IMG/VR virus record: IMGVR_UViG_3300038327_000020
Location: 1-39,812 of that record
DNA: 39,812 nt
Origin: a virus
Strand: one strand, 5' to 3'
Shown here piece after piece: positions 1 to 39,812 of the stretch. The position numbers and the translations under genes are program-made. Under the pieces are notes generated by a model. It saw only the letters and a program-made list of their open reading frames with translations. It was not told the DNA's origin and searched no databases. Position 1 is the first letter of the stretch; the number at the start of each line of letters is the position of its first letter.

Positions 1-238
1 CTGCACCCACCACCCTTTAGACCTATCTCTAAGCATTCCCCAGAGTTTAGCAATCCGTTTAACTGCTCCTGCGCTGAAGGTGTTATCGTCATTCATTTCT
101 TGTGCGCATGACTGCGATGTGCGCCATTACTTTACTTGTAGTGTTAGTCATCACGCATGGAATAAAAGCATGGATAAAAGCACAAGCACTCCCAACCAGC
201 AGAGAGCCAGCAAAGTGCATTGCCTTTCGTAAGTGTCG
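1..238. repeat. Contig-end redundancy (left copy)
   Basis: These 238 bases match positions 39575-39812 except at five positions (128, 152, 155, 163, 176), all transitions. This shows the contig closes into a circle of about 39,574 bp. Because the copies are not identical, this is better read as assembly overlap between two haplotypes of one phage population than as an exact terminal repeat of one molecule. Confidence 0.9.
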
Positions 239-274
239 CAAATACGTTTCATTGTTTTCCTCTAAGTGCTTCAT
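89..274 (-). CDS. DUF6356 family small membrane protein
   Basis: A 61-aa protein whose N-terminal half reads ETYLRHLRKAMHFAG followed by a hydrophobic stretch with IHAFIP. This is the DUF6356 pattern (ETYL, H near the middle, IHA.xP) known mainly from Alphaproteobacteria and some of their phages; the function is unknown. It has one or two membrane-spanning segments at about residues 21-42. Its start overlaps the upstream stop (TAATG) and its stop overlaps the start of the Fe-S carrier gene (ATGA) across the contig join. Four of five differences between the two contig-end copies are synonymous in this frame and the fifth is Ile to Val, so the frame is under protein-level selection. A lysis or membrane role is possible but not shown. 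Confidence 0.75.
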   Translation of the reverse strand: MKHLEENNETYLRHLRKAMHFAGSLLVGSACAFIHAFIPCVMTNTTSKVMAHIAVMRTRNE

Positions 275-492
275 TATTTTTCCTCTGGCCCTAGCACTCG
301 TTGTAACATTTTCTCTAAAGTTTCTAATCTATAGGATAGAACATCTAGGTTATCTATAATCATAGCCATGTCATCCCTGTCACGTTTAAGCATTTCAACA
401 TCACTTGATATACTACTAGCCCACCATACAGCGGTAGTTGTTTGGATTATTAAAAATATAACAGCACTAATTAAGTATGGAGGTATTGTCAT
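274..492 (-). CDS. Small membrane protein with coiled coil, holin or spanin candidate
   Basis: A 72-aa protein with one transmembrane segment at about residues 5-26 (YLISAVIFLIIQTTTAVWWA), then a charged heptad-patterned region at about 30-66 likely to form a coiled coil. This single-TM plus coiled-coil layout occurs in phage inner-membrane lysis proteins (holins, i-spanins). There is no lipobox. The start sits on the upstream stop (TAATG). Its position near the end of the late operon, between a secreted protein and DUF6356, fits a lysis or envelope role. The lysis role is inference. Confidence 0.7.
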   Translation of the reverse strand: MTIPPYLISAVIFLIIQTTTAVWWASSISSDVEMLKRDRDDMAMIIDNLDVLSYRLETLEKMLQRVLGPEEK

Positions 493-857
493 TATGTTTC
501 CTCTGGGAATATAGGTCTAGGGTTTATTGATAAGGCCATACCACTTGGGCTTCTGCCTGACCAGATTATACAAGCCTCCTCCCTAATCTTATTCTTCTTT
601 GTTATAACTACAGTGGAGGTAGTTCTATCTTTATTAACAAAGTATACCAATGTATTAGGCTCATCACCTTCTTTCAGATAGCCCATCATTACAGGAGCCT
701 CTTGAAATTCAATGGCTAACATATCCATAAGGAATTCAAATGAATCTGCGCAGAACAACTGCATCCTTACTTGAATAGGTTTGATACCAGTTGGAGGTTC
801 TTGCGCCATAACAGGAGATACAAGGATCGCTAACGATAATAGAATATATTTAATCAT
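492..857 (-). CDS. Secreted protein of unknown function
   Basis: A 121-aa protein with a clear Sec signal peptide: MIKYILLSLAILVSPVMA then QEPP, with cleavage expected after the AQ-flanking alanine (about residue 18). The mature part has two cysteines (in LFCAD and EACII) that could form a disulfide in the periplasm. I recognise the general type as a small secreted hypothetical of marine phages but cannot name a family. Its start overlaps the end of the large ejection protein gene (ATGA), so it belongs to the late operon. Confidence 0.8.
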   Translation of the reverse strand: MIKYILLSLAILVSPVMAQEPPTGIKPIQVRMQLFCADSFEFLMDMLAIEFQEAPVMMGYLKEGDEPNTLVYFVNKDRTTSTVVITKKNKIREEACIIWSGRSPSGMALSINPRPIFPEET

Positions 858-7387: not shown

Positions 7388-7806
7388 TAGTGCATCCTCT
7401 CTTTCAAGTCTTTAGTAAAGACTATGTATGAATCTTTCCAGTCAGGTAACATTTTTTTCCACCCCTTTCTACCCCATAATTCCATAGCGGAGCATCCTTG
7501 TTTTATGGCAAATGACTCTATCATATCGTTAAACCTTTCGTGTAGTTCTTTGAAGTTTTTCCCAGATATCGCAATAACACGCAGTATCTTTTTCTGTGGG
7601 TACTTTATTATTTCTGTAACCATAGACATAATAATTTCTTTATCTTCTGTGGCAATCCATAACTGCATATTACCAGTCATTAGATTATCCAAGAAGTCAT
7701 CAGGCTCTAACTCCCCTTCGCTATGCTGTTGAATACTAGCAAGCATGGGGCCAACATTATCCCACAGGTATGGCACATCTTCTGGGCTGATAAGGTGAGC
7801 ATTCAA
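7387..7806 (-). CDS. GNAT-fold-like phage protein (T7 gp13-like position)
   Basis: A 139-aa protein with the general pattern of GNAT-like phage proteins: a helical N-terminus (VPYLWDNVGPMLASI), a strand with LWIATEDKEII, then LRVIAISGK in place of the acetyl-CoA loop, and a C-terminal strand with SYIVFTKDL. Similar GNAT-like proteins of about 140 aa stand beside ejection proteins in T7-like phages (gp13, internal virion protein A). The classical Q/R-x-x-G-x-G/A motif is not clear, so catalysis is uncertain. The start appears to be TTG overlapping the upstream stop (TTGA), with AGGATAG just upstream. Confidence 0.65.
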   Translation of the reverse strand: MNAHLISPEDVPYLWDNVGPMLASIQQHSEGELEPDDFLDNLMTGNMQLWIATEDKEIIMSMVTEIIKYPQKKILRVIAISGKNFKELHERFNDMIESFAIKQGCSAMELWGRKGWKKMLPDWKDSYIVFTKDLKERMH

Positions 7807-8789
7807 AAGTCTATCCTGTATGTTGCCTGTATCTTATCTTCTGAGTATCTTAAATTATACCCATCAGACTGTAATCCTAATTCGTAACCGTTGTCATCTA
7901 TTCGTAGTTTTATCTTTGGCTTTTTTGTTAAGACGACGAAGAGGGTGATTGCGGCTATAGACGATACGGCTAACTCCTTTTCGTACTCTTGATGCCACTT
8001 CTTCTTTTTTCTTTTGTCCCAATTTAGAGTTTGGCAGGAAGACGATCCTCTTCCGTTTCCCGTTCCAACAACTCCCGCATAAGAACAAGCAATGTCGCCA
8101 AATCTTTTTGCCTCCGCACTTTCTCCTCTGAGGTTGTACTCAGATACGACAACTGGTTTTCCAAACCTAAGAGCGTTTTCAATTTGTTGTCTGAACTGTT
8201 GCTCATTAAGATTAAACCCTGTCTGAAGATAAATTATATCTGCATCTTTTATGTACTCTGGTTTTACACCGGGAGTAAGGTGTACCCCTACAGGCTTGTT
8301 AGTCTTCTTCTTTAACTCGGCTATTAACGTAGATACATCTGAAGGTGTATAATACTCGTCACACTCAAGACAGACCACATAATGGCTAACAATGTCATCA
8401 ACCTCAGAAACAACTTTGCTTTGGTAATCAATCTGGTTCTTTAACCCTTTGCTATATACGTCATTACTGTCATCACTTATCATCCATACTACGGCTTGTA
8501 TACCGCTATTACGCAACCTATTAATACGACTGCGCCAAACATTCCTATCAACTCCATCAACTACTCCAAAATCTCTTGCTGTACTTCTAGCCATTATATC
8601 CGCGTAAGTATCCCCTTGAATCCTACTTATAACCCTGTCTCTCCAGTTATCATCTAAGTCATTGGACAGCCAAGAGAGGGTAGAGTACGGGGAAATAAAA
8701 CTTCCTTCAGGTTTGCCAATTAAAAAGGTGGAGCGATAGTCTGCGTTAGAGTTTTTCCCAAGCAGGAGAGCCATCATCAATATAAACAT
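7803..8789 (-). CDS. Putative secreted glycoside-hydrolase-like TIM-barrel protein
   Basis: A 328-aa protein from the ATG with AAGGTG four bases upstream. Residues 1-16 form a short signal peptide (MFILMMALLLGKNSNA). The body alternates strands and helices like a (beta/alpha)8 barrel. Two acidic strand ends resemble the catalytic pair of GH-A clan hydrolases: LECDEY (E142/E145) and PVVVSEYNL (E217). Residues 273-288 are hydrophobic (AVSSIAAITLFVVL) after a Lys-rich patch, and a beta-rich tail follows. It may degrade host surface or cell-wall glycan, in the virion or during lysis. No other endolysin is recognisable in the genome. The fold and function are inference from pattern. Confidence 0.55.
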   Translation of the reverse strand: MFILMMALLLGKNSNADYRSTFLIGKPEGSFISPYSTLSWLSNDLDDNWRDRVISRIQGDTYADIMARSTARDFGVVDGVDRNVWRSRINRLRNSGIQAVVWMISDDSNDVYSKGLKNQIDYQSKVVSEVDDIVSHYVVCLECDEYYTPSDVSTLIAELKKKTNKPVGVHLTPGVKPEYIKDADIIYLQTGFNLNEQQFRQQIENALRFGKPVVVSEYNLRGESAEAKRFGDIACSYAGVVGTGNGRGSSSCQTLNWDKRKKKKWHQEYEKELAVSSIAAITLFVVLTKKPKIKLRIDDNGYELGLQSDGYNLRYSEDKIQATYRIDF

Positions 8790-9030
8790 AAACACCTTGA
8801 CCGCTACCGGGGTTCCAATTAGTCCCATCCGCATATCTTATATCACCATCTCTAGGTTTAACAGGGGCAACATTAGTTTGCTCCAGCCTTAATTGAGCCA
8901 CGTTATAAATAATATCTCCAAGTTTATTTAATTCCCTAATAACAAATTCACCGAGGTATTCAGGGTTTTCTGGGATTGAGCCGGGTTGATAATAAGTTAC
9001 ACTCTTTACAGTTTTTGAAGGTATAGACAT
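8746..9030 (-). CDS. Small conserved tail-module protein
   Basis: A 94-aa protein with a helical core (FVIRELNKLGDIIYNV) and a C-terminal YADGTNWNPGSGQGVYVY segment ending in W.KL. Proteins of this design (a helix, then ADGTxWNPGSGxGxY) are widespread next to tail genes of marine podoviruses; the role is unknown, perhaps a tail-fibre or nozzle accessory. The last 44 bases overlap the start of the glycosidase-like gene in another frame. Its start overlaps the nozzle gene stop. Confidence 0.75.
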   Translation of the reverse strand: MSIPSKTVKSVTYYQPGSIPENPEYLGEFVIRELNKLGDIIYNVAQLRLEQTNVAPVKPRDGDIRYADGTNWNPGSGQGVYVYIDDGSPAWEKL

Positions 9031-28824: not shown

Positions 28825-29415
28825 ATGCTAGAACAAATCAAGATCAGCAAAATGAGCGGTAAACTGCACAACATGGGAGCAATCAATACCGATACCACTA
28901 CCAATGAGTTTTGTATCCGCCAGAAAGAGACTGATACCATCTGTGGGCAATGCTACTCACATAAGATGCTATCTACCTTTAGAAAGTCTTGTGTACCGGC
29001 ATTCCAGCATAACTCTAGGCTATTGTCTGAACTGATAGATTGGGATTTGTTGCCAATCATAAATCAGGCATATTTCAGATTTAATGGCCACGGGGAATTA
29101 ATCAATACCGCACACTTTCAGAACATCGTGAATATTGCCCGGAAAAACCCTCATTGCAGTTTCGCACTATGGACAAAACGCGCCTCGATTGTACGCCAAT
29201 TTGACGGGGAGATACCTGATAACCTGATTCTGGTATTCTCTAATCCTAGGATTGATAAGGTTATTGATACGCCTAGGGGTTTTCATAAGGTTTTCAATAA
29301 CGTATCGAAAGATAGCACCATCAATCAAAACTGTACTGGTCGCAAGTGTATGGATTGCCTGATCTGCTACCGTAAGAATTCTGGAACCAATGTTATAGTT
29401 GAGGCCGTAAAGTAA
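28825..29415 (+). CDS. GP88-like cysteine-rich protein
   Basis: A 196-aa protein with nine cysteines. Cys 30, 40, 43 and 56 lie in EFCIRQKETDTICGQCYSHK and the next segment. YFRFNGHGELINTAHFQNIV (83-102) corresponds to the FRW-SGD block of the GP88 family (PF17338), and ALWTKR matches its PTRE-like strand. The end has C170-x4-C-x2-C-x2-C181. This cysteine pattern suggests a bound metal or iron-sulfur cluster. The biochemical function of GP88 proteins is not established. A strong terminator follows. It is the only cysteine-cluster protein of the plus block besides the nucleases and the reductase. Confidence 0.65.
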   Translation: MLEQIKISKMSGKLHNMGAINTDTTTNEFCIRQKETDTICGQCYSHKMLSTFRKSCVPAFQHNSRLLSELIDWDLLPIINQAYFRFNGHGELINTAHFQNIVNIARKNPHCSFALWTKRASIVRQFDGEIPDNLILVFSNPRIDKVIDTPRGFHKVFNNVSKDSTINQNCTGRKCMDCLICYRKNSGTNVIVEAVK

Positions 29416-38758: not shown

Positions 38759-38996
38759 AATCCCCAGTAAAATCATCTGGGTCTTTAGTGTTTGCTATCA
38801 CTATAGTATCATCGTCCCGACTTATTAACCAGCCAACAGTAAAAAGGGTGGGGCAAGAAATTTCCTGCTCCCACCCCGCTGTCGCTATGATGTCACGCCA
38901 TTCGACAATGACTAACTCTTTTTCTTTTTCTCCAGTGGCCCCGGTAGTATCCAACCGATTATCATTGGTGCTACGAATATCAGTAGTAATGCCCAT
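38628..38996 (-). CDS. Small conserved phage protein (VEW...GWL type)
   Basis: A 122-aa protein from ATG 38996, with GGAG 8 bases upstream; TTG 38954 is a second option. The core ELVIVEWRDIIATAGWEQE, FTVGWLISRDDDTIVIANTK and HAFPAGAVVHVHP matches small phage proteins with the plan V-E-W-x-D...G-W...T-x-G-W-L...I-x-I-A-N...P-x-G-A-V. Its last 21 residues after HVHP look unlike that family and lie antisense to the plus-strand gene, as if a stop had been lost. Last gene of the late operon. An intrinsic-terminator hairpin lies inside it. Confidence 0.7.
   Translation of the reverse strand: MGITTDIRSTNDNRLDTTGATGEKEKELVIVEWRDIIATAGWEQEISCPTLFTVGWLISRDDDTIVIANTKDPDDFTGDSTPPVYYGLHAFPAGAVVHVHPCDPVHTCEVISPLSSQISVPK
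38763..38786 (+). terminator. Weak terminator after plus block
   Basis: CCCAG-TAAAATCAT-CTGGG then TCTTT, 4 bases after the last plus-strand stop. The stem is only 5 bp, so this is tentative. Confidence 0.35.
38841..38877 (-). terminator. Terminator-like hairpin for the late operon
   Basis: On the minus strand a GGGTGGGAGCA / TGCCCCACCC stem (about 10 bp, one bulge) with a GGAAATTTCT loop is followed by TTTTT. It has the form of an intrinsic terminator but lies in the coding region of the last gene, so either late transcription is partly ended here or the hairpin is incidental. Confidence 0.55.
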
Positions 38997-39349
38997 CCTC
39001 CTATCTCCACTAATGACTGCATTATTGTCCATATATTATCAGGTGCGCAATCCATACTATGCTCCGTAGTAGTTGTTGACGAAATCTCCGTCACCACATC
39101 TGTTACAAAGGCAGTTGTCATGGCTCCCGCTATCGGCGCAATCGCACCCCCACTGAACACAGTCCCCGCAGTTGCACCCACTGCCGCTCCTGTCGCTACT
39201 ATCCCCGCTTTCTTTATTGTCCCGCATCCTACAAGGCAGGCGCTTGTGGCGAGGGTGATCCCCAGATTGCGGCAACGACTACGATAACTACTACCGATAT
39301 CGTTATACCCCACTTTACTTTTGGGTTTAACTCTTTGAATTTTTCCCAC
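38912..39349 (-). CDS. Putative lipoprotein with C-terminal membrane segment
   Basis: The frame contains a signal peptide with a lipobox, ITLATSACLVGC then GTIKKAG (Cys 42 counted from the GTG at 39349), followed by Gly/Ala-rich GIVATGAAVGATAGTVFSGG, a Thr-rich stretch, and a second hydrophobic segment GWALLLIFVAPMIIGWILPG before a Lys-rich end. The true start is unclear: GTG 39349 shares a ribosome site with the 40-aa gene (ATGTG), GTG 39313 is internal. A lipoprotein nested in another frame recalls Rz/Rz1 spanins, but the size and second membrane segment do not fit a normal o-spanin. Cell envelope role likely. Confidence 0.6.
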   Translation of the reverse strand: MGKIQRVKPKSKVGYNDIGSSYRSRCRNLGITLATSACLVGCGTIKKAGIVATGAAVGATAGTVFSGGAIAPIAGAMTTAFVTDVVTEISSTTTTEHSMDCAPDNIWTIMQSLVEIGGWALLLIFVAPMIIGWILPGPLEKKKKS

Positions 39350-39351
39350 AT
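39229..39351 (-). CDS. 40-aa single-pass membrane protein
   Basis: A 40-residue protein: MWEKFKELNPKVKWG, a hydrophobic ITISVVVIVVVAAIW and a short GSPSPQAPAL tail. AGGAG lies 7 bases upstream of its ATG, the best start in this stretch. Tiny proteins of this type (K-x-L-N-P-K-V-K followed by a Val/Ile-rich helix) are common in marine phages. Nearly all of it overlaps the N-terminus of the lipoprotein frame. Perhaps a holin-like or lysis accessory protein; no evidence beyond layout. Confidence 0.65.
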   Translation of the reverse strand: MWEKFKELNPKVKWGITISVVVIVVVAAIWGSPSPQAPAL

Positions 39352-39363
39352 ATTTATCTCCTC

Positions 39364-39666
39364 TTATATAGCGATGCTATCTCCGCATCCACATTTCATT
39401 ACATTTTTACTTGGATTAACTACAAATCTTTTAGAGAACCCCTTATCCTCATAGTCAAGACTACCGTCTTGTAAGTATTTCTGAGATGTCTCGTCTGCGA
39501 ATCTGGTATTGTCTCCAATGCTCAACTCTGTAGTACCTGTCGAGGTCATCTTCTCTAAGGTAATCATAAGGCCACTGCACCCACCACCCTTTAGACCTAT
39601 CTCTAAGCATTCCCCAGAGTTTAGCAATCCGTTTAACTGCTCCTGCGCTGAAGGTGTTATCGTCAT
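39364..39666 (-). CDS. A-type iron-sulfur cluster carrier (IscA/HesB/ErpA-like)
   Basis: A 100-aa protein with the HesB/IscA fold pattern. ITPSAQEQLNGLL starts it, LKGGGCSGLMITLE holds ligand Cys 30, and KCGCGDSIAI at the end holds Cys 92 and 94. These three cysteines bind the Fe-S cluster or iron in IscA, SufA and ErpA (about 107-120 aa), and all are kept, so the protein is probably active. It would deliver clusters to host or phage apo-proteins. Its start overlaps the DUF6356 stop (ATGA) across the contig join and a membrane-protein gene follows, so it is a late gene. It looks intact, an auxiliary metabolic gene of likely host origin. Confidence 0.88.
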   Translation of the reverse strand: MTITPSAQEQLNGLLNSGECLEIGLKGGGCSGLMITLEKMTSTGTTELSIGDNTRFADETSQKYLQDGSLDYEDKGFSKRFVVNPSKNVMKCGCGDSIAI

Positions 39667-39812
39667 TCATTTCTTGTGCGCATGACTGCGATGTGCGCCA
39701 TCACTTTACTTGTAGTGTTAGTCATTACACATGGAACAAAAGCATGGATGAAAGCACAAGCACTCCCAACCAGCAGAGAGCCAGCAAAGTGCATTGCCTT
39801 TCGTAAGTGTCG
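39575..39812. repeat. Contig-end redundancy (right copy)
   Basis: Second copy of positions 1-238, differing at 39702, 39726, 39729, 39737 and 39750, all transitions. The first 127 bases and the last 62 are identical. Confidence 0.9.
39663..39812 (-). CDS. DUF6356 protein, partial second haplotype copy
   Basis: The C-terminal 49 codons of the gene at 89-274 reappear here and run off the contig end. Compared with the first copy there are four synonymous codon changes and one Ile to Val change (AFVP in place of AFIP). It is the same gene on the circular genome, not a second gene. Confidence 0.85.
   Translation of the reverse strand, partial: RHLRKAMHFAGSLLVGSACAFIHAFVPCVMTNTTSKVMAHIAVMRTRNE

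Follow-up and report, generated by a model that had tools for sequence, protein, structure and literature searches.

The window analysed here is the entire virus record IMGVR_UViG_3300038327_000020 (39,812 nt), which derives from a phage described as marine. The sequence at positions 1-238 recurs with 98% identity at 39575-39812, and this 238-bp repeat common to both ends indicates that the genome closes at about 39.57 kb, being either closed or terminally redundant. As the two copies are only 98% alike, the ends of the record probably join slightly different strains or genomes. A leftward operon comprises the portal, terminase, capsid and tail genes, many of which are linked by short overlaps, and converges tail-to-tail with the early operon. 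The portal protein is of the LUZ24/HTVC106P kind. The leftward operon is termed late on the basis of its gene order; scans for promoters and terminators yielded matches near chance level and hence no evidence on timing. Near the end of this operon a gene for an A-type Fe-S carrier of 100 amino acids occupies positions 39364-39666 on the minus strand. A preliminary description of this DNA had given the correct coordinates, albeit no strand, and had rightly placed the gene at the end of the late operon with the virion genes. Only the minus strand is open over this interval, the plus strand reading being interrupted by stops. Owing to the end repeat, the first 30 codons of the carrier gene occur a second time as a truncated copy at positions 3-92 (minus strand).

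The carrier gene is embedded in a compact cassette. It is preceded by a gene for a DUF6356 small membrane protein (61 amino acids; 89-274, minus strand; PF19883, E 1.3e-15, 57.7 bits versus a cut-off of 24.4), a second, partial copy of which is present at the opposite end of the contig (39663-39812). When the sequence is read through the closed contig ends, the stop of the DUF6356 gene overlaps the carrier start by 4 nt, which bears out the coupling of the two genes claimed earlier. Two small open reading frames for a 72-amino acid TM/coil protein and a 121-amino acid protein with a putative signal peptide lie further upstream in the same operon (274-857, minus strand). Within the carrier gene itself, an overlapping open reading frame of 69 codons (MNDDNTFS...LTRR) extends in the +2 frame over positions 39461-39670 (minus strand), starting 4 nt before the carrier start, on the DUF6356 stop. 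This frame had escaped the preliminary description.

Downstream of the carrier, a spanin-like lipoprotein is encoded at 38912-39349 (minus strand), featuring the lipobox LVGC, a glycine-zipper stretch, a C-terminal transmembrane segment and a basic tail. It belongs to phrog_13877, the function of which is unannotated, and matches no spanin family in Pfam or PHROGs. In relatives, the lipobox cysteine is invariant and the C-terminal hydrophobic segment conserved. With a lipobox and a C-terminal transmembrane segment as in u-spanins the product may be a spanin, and it is from this combination, rather than from a family match, that the locus takes its label as a lysis region. The start of the lipoprotein gene is overlapped by a further open reading frame for a 40-amino acid protein with a single transmembrane segment (39229-39351, minus strand), which is kept in relatives. 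Together with the lipoprotein gene it forms a second overlapping pair in the carrier cassette, and this pair resembles a spanin arrangement.

Does the carrier gene encode a genuine Fe-S protein? The product matches the Pfam family Fe-S_biosyn (PF01521) with 27.3 bits versus a cut-off of 26.3, residues 1-96 covering profile positions 3-110 of 110. The NCBIfam model TIGR00049 is found with E 3e-13 but at 49.9 bits, below its own cut-off of 58.8, and all NCBIfam subfamily cut-offs are missed (ErpA 41.9 versus 117, SufA 39.8 versus 136 and IscA 38.0 versus 150.6 bits). Solved structures of ErpA, IscA and SufA, including those of the ErpA-type protein HI1723 and of E. coli IscA and SufA, match the carrier at E 2e-7 to 6e-3, and the profile of phrog_17776, a PHROG without functional annotation, does so at E 3.9e-12. 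Identity amounts to 32% with IscA, 30% with ErpA and 23% with SufA from E. coli, with short deletions. In a small tree that contains only few bacterial members, the viral clades separate from IscA/SufA and from ErpA of E. coli. Given these broad family matches and the missed subfamily cut-offs, the protein is an A-type carrier in the broad sense that cannot be assigned to IscA, SufA or ErpA. Furthermore, a Pfam score that barely passes and NCBIfam cut-offs that are not reached point to a diverged protein with two shortened loops, the activity of which may differ. A search of bacterial genomes for the donor returned only two contigs from metagenome-assembled genomes, both of which are probably phage.

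The three cluster-binding cysteines noticed before are indeed all present: Cys30 resides in the motif GGGCSG and Cys92 and Cys94 in the motif CGCG, and they align with the cluster-binding residues Cys35, Cys99 and Cys101 of IscA. Scans of viral sequences provided 79 carrier loci that fall into two main clades, with most members 67-100% and 35-40% identical to the query. Cys30, Cys92 and Cys94 are invariant in all 78 translated copies from these two clades, while Cys20 varies, and the invariance of all three ligands shows that the gene has not decayed. A third carrier clade, which surfaced via the spanin-like gene, likewise retains CGCG. In several relatives (L203, L206, L207, L219, L220 and L242) two or three distinct carrier paralogues share a single late operon; one kind of paralogue ends in CGGC. 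Heterodimers as in ISCA1/ISCA2 are conceivable for such sets. The preservation of the ligand cysteines over deep divergence, together with the gain of paralogues, argues for real Fe-S work. Taken together, the sequence comparisons strongly support the view that the gene encodes a genuine, divergent, shortened and phage-adapted A-type carrier.

The genomic slot of the carrier is well defined. A spanin-like gene follows in 69 of the 73 loci with enough downstream sequence, in 68 of these within 125 nt, and DUF6356 lies upstream in 58 of 78. Viewed from the other side, the carrier adjoins the spanin-like gene in 22 of 59 loci, and in loci lacking the carrier DUF6356 is frequently the direct neighbour of the spanin-like gene. 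The carrier is missing from near-complete relatives that share the virion genes and have portals 79-93% identical, whereas one with a portal of 79% identity possesses it. The existence of close relatives with the same virion genes but without a carrier identifies the latter as optional cargo in a fixed slot. The DUF6356 proteins themselves differ between these settings: a motif CAxxHAxxPC in the transmembrane segment is frequent in MKHL-type copies beside a carrier and never occurs in copies abutting the spanin-like gene. Since the copies with this motif cluster by phylogeny, the observation is a hint only. A C-terminal CxC in DUF6356 of carrier-less loci was discarded, as judged from the sequence it is a read-through of the ribosome-binding site and the start of the next gene.

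The supply of clusters to host enzymes late in infection appears to be the best-supported role for the carrier. The protein would be made late in infection, would accept clusters on Cys30, Cys92 and Cys94 from host IscU or SufBCD and would pass them on to host apo-enzymes, that is to Fe-S proteins of respiration and central metabolism. Synthesis of the host's own carriers would be failing meanwhile, and the phage protein could prolong the energy supply until lysis. According to this proposal the carrier gene is optional cargo in a fixed slot flanked by DUF6356 and the spanin-like gene, and the same DNA would specify, in the +2 frame, a second small protein kept by selection. We assign a probability of about 0.5 to this explanation as a whole.

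An alternative that we consider unlikely, yet worth some attention, is that the carrier serves a phage Fe-S protein instead of host enzymes. The prime candidate is the early gene product of the GP88 family (28825-29415, plus strand; PF17338), in which eight cysteines in two groups of four (Cys30/40/43/56 and Cys170/175/178/181) are invariant across 17 homologues, making it a candidate metal or Fe-S protein and possibly a two-cluster or two-zinc protein. Likewise, the 343-residue product of g7803 (7803-8834, minus strand), for which no family match was obtained, retains Cys155, Cys158, Cys250 and Cys267 in all relatives. These cysteines of GP88 and g7803 are, however, unchanged in phages without a carrier. 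Moreover, GP88 is encoded in the opposite, probably early operon, and Pfam detected it in only one of 24 carrier-bearing records, many of which are fragments. Its predicted fold has no significant match in the PDB, so that zinc is equally possible. No obvious dedicated Fe-S client was found in the window. Two further candidates were dismissed: a PD-(D/E)XK protein has only two cysteines and lacks the set of a Cas4-type Fe-S nuclease, and the ribonucleotide reductase scores best against B12-type models and not as a class I di-iron enzyme that would consume iron. In three other phages, the spanin-like gene is closely followed by the counterpart of g7803.

The second component of the favoured explanation, the +2 frame, was analysed across the clades. 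In relatives it spans 69-73 codons, and its initial ATG lies at the DUF6356 stop, preceding the carrier start by 4 or 10 nt. Counted from the carrier start, 27 of 28 clade I-type sequences have 67-69 codons without a stop in this frame; the exception is L198, an outlier that moreover has neither DUF6356 nor the spanin-like gene beside it. In clade III it is open for 69-71 codons. When synonymous codons of the window's copy were shuffled, the open length was attained in 0.3% of trials. To account for common descent, the changes were mapped onto a tree. Carrier-silent changes to T that make a +2 stop occurred in none of about 450 opportunities, compared with 35 of 875 elsewhere in the overlap, while the same two contexts hardly differ in the portal control (5.6% versus 6.1%). 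With expected counts derived from dinucleotide-specific rates of the portal gene, silent changes creating a +2 stop number 0 observed versus 16.4 expected in clade I (P 8e-8) and 6 versus 29 in clade II (P 3e-7). Downstream of the overlap stops are not depleted in clade II; in clade I this region offers few opportunities and also shows few changes, and it is thus a weak control. In clade II, carrier-silent changes are in addition conservative with respect to the +2 protein (mean BLOSUM62 about 0.5 versus 0.03, P<=2e-4), a tendency that is marginal in clade I (P about 0.05) and is found neither downstream of the overlap nor in the portal gene.

These patterns have to be weighed against the notion that codon or dinucleotide bias accounts for the open frame and that the carrier is the sole product. 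In clade I, the overlap shows no reduction in overall synonymous diversity relative to the remainder of the carrier gene, and the borderline value for conservative changes in the same clade also fits this notion. We nevertheless regard it as decidedly improbable, because the stop depletion persists in both clades against dinucleotide-matched rates, because in clade II it vanishes downstream of the overlap and is accompanied by protein-level conservatism, and because the corresponding frame is not open in iscA, erpA and sufA of E. coli. In a few members of clade II the +2 frame is broken early. The deduced product is small, basic and rich in Trp and Arg; it has no relative in Pfam or PHROGs, and its predicted structure is of low confidence (mean pLDDT 59) and was set aside. 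In our judgement the +2 frame very probably constitutes a hitherto unannotated overlapping gene preserved by selection, and its product would be translated.

Could the cassette act on the membrane? The carrier might withdraw clusters or bind iron and, jointly with DUF6356 and the +2 product, sway membrane energetics or the timing of lysis. Its constant location, with DUF6356 on one side and the spanin-like gene on the other, fits this scenario, as does one relative in which DUF6356 precedes carriers at two places, and so do two Cys residues and one His in the transmembrane segment of DUF6356 that occur only in carrier-linked copies of the MKHL type. This residue correlation, however, tracks phylogeny and fails in several carrier-linked copies, and both DUF6356 and the spanin-like gene also exist without the carrier, which leaves the scenario with a slim chance. 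We give still less credence to a related and more specific version, in which DUF6356, the carrier and the +2 protein would form a late membrane-linked module that makes lysis responsive to the Fe-S state of the dying cell; an overlapping gene devoid of any function in such a module is much more probable, and indeed very likely.

It is also conceivable, if very improbable, that the slot is a neutral landing site where selection acts mainly on the +2 protein and the carrier frame is a passenger. The start codons are compatible with such an arrangement: in most of clade I the +2 frame receives an ATG at the DUF6356 stop while the carrier starts with TTG 10 nt downstream, and 21 of 25 representatives of clade I use TTG as the carrier start codon. 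On the other hand, the carrier frame has kept its fold motifs and all ligand cysteines over three diverged clades. Finally, a role in the sense of the Ferrojan-horse idea, in which the carrier would provide a virion or tail protein with iron or clusters and which had been proposed for this gene, is barely credible, since co-direction with the virion genes at the end of their operon is countered by the retention of these genes in near relatives lacking the carrier and by the equal conservation of the cysteines of g7803, g9030, portal and terminase with or without it, no late protein having a cysteine set exclusive to carrier-bearing phages. Sustaining host respiration up to lysis, the other role suggested at that time, appears more likely than a virion-related one.

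Nested lysis genes are known from phages, an example being Rz1 inside Rz. The locus described here is similar in that a gene in the neighbourhood of lysis genes specifies a second protein in another, shifted frame, and it deviates from the Rz1/Rz nesting in that the other frame encodes a metabolic carrier and the +2 protein has no Pfam or PHROG relative. Overprinted viral genes form a general class (reviewed in PMC8227390). The carrier shares with the bacterial A-type carriers IscA, SufA and ErpA (PF01521; Vinella et al., 2009, PMC2682760) the full-length domain match, the three ligand cysteines, the G-rich loop and the C-terminal CGCG. Unlike IscA (107 amino acids) and ErpA (114 amino acids), it comprises only 100 residues, with loop deletions, and, unlike the bacterial carriers in general, it is encoded in a late operon with no isc or suf genes nearby and is overlapped by the +2 frame.

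Phage-encoded A-type carriers are known already. According to the available portions of the respective papers, genes for A-type carriers and IscU occur in marine viral genomes, several of which are T4-like and contain other Fe-S genes (Nishimura et al., 2017, PMC5332604), erpA/iscU in HMO-2011-type phages (PMC9038755), sufA in relatives of an OM43 phage (PMC10580990) and IscA-type genes beneath the Ross Ice Shelf (PMC10721903). The same portions already put forward that phage-borne carriers supplement the Fe-S supply of the host (PMC5332604, PMC9038755, PMC10580990, PMC10721903), and they report neither the slot at the lysis end nor an overlapping frame. The new element is the overlapping gene. 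Furthermore, a loosely annotated 'auxiliary metabolic gene' is given a positional rule, i.e. that of an optional carrier from three diverged clades at the lysis end of the late operon. As the carrier gene holds a second conserved frame, phenotypes caused by deleting such phage carriers could stem from the hidden protein, and the effects of the carrier and of the +2 protein could be told apart by mutations that are silent in one of the two frames.

Yet another frame deserves mention. The +1 frame, too, is free of stops in L007, L199 and the majority of clade I loci, over the final third of the carrier gene and for about 35 nt past its end. It passes the carrier stop and terminates in a conserved (H/Q)(R/K)CNNFxxFRR* with synonymous changes; the window's own subclade lacks it.
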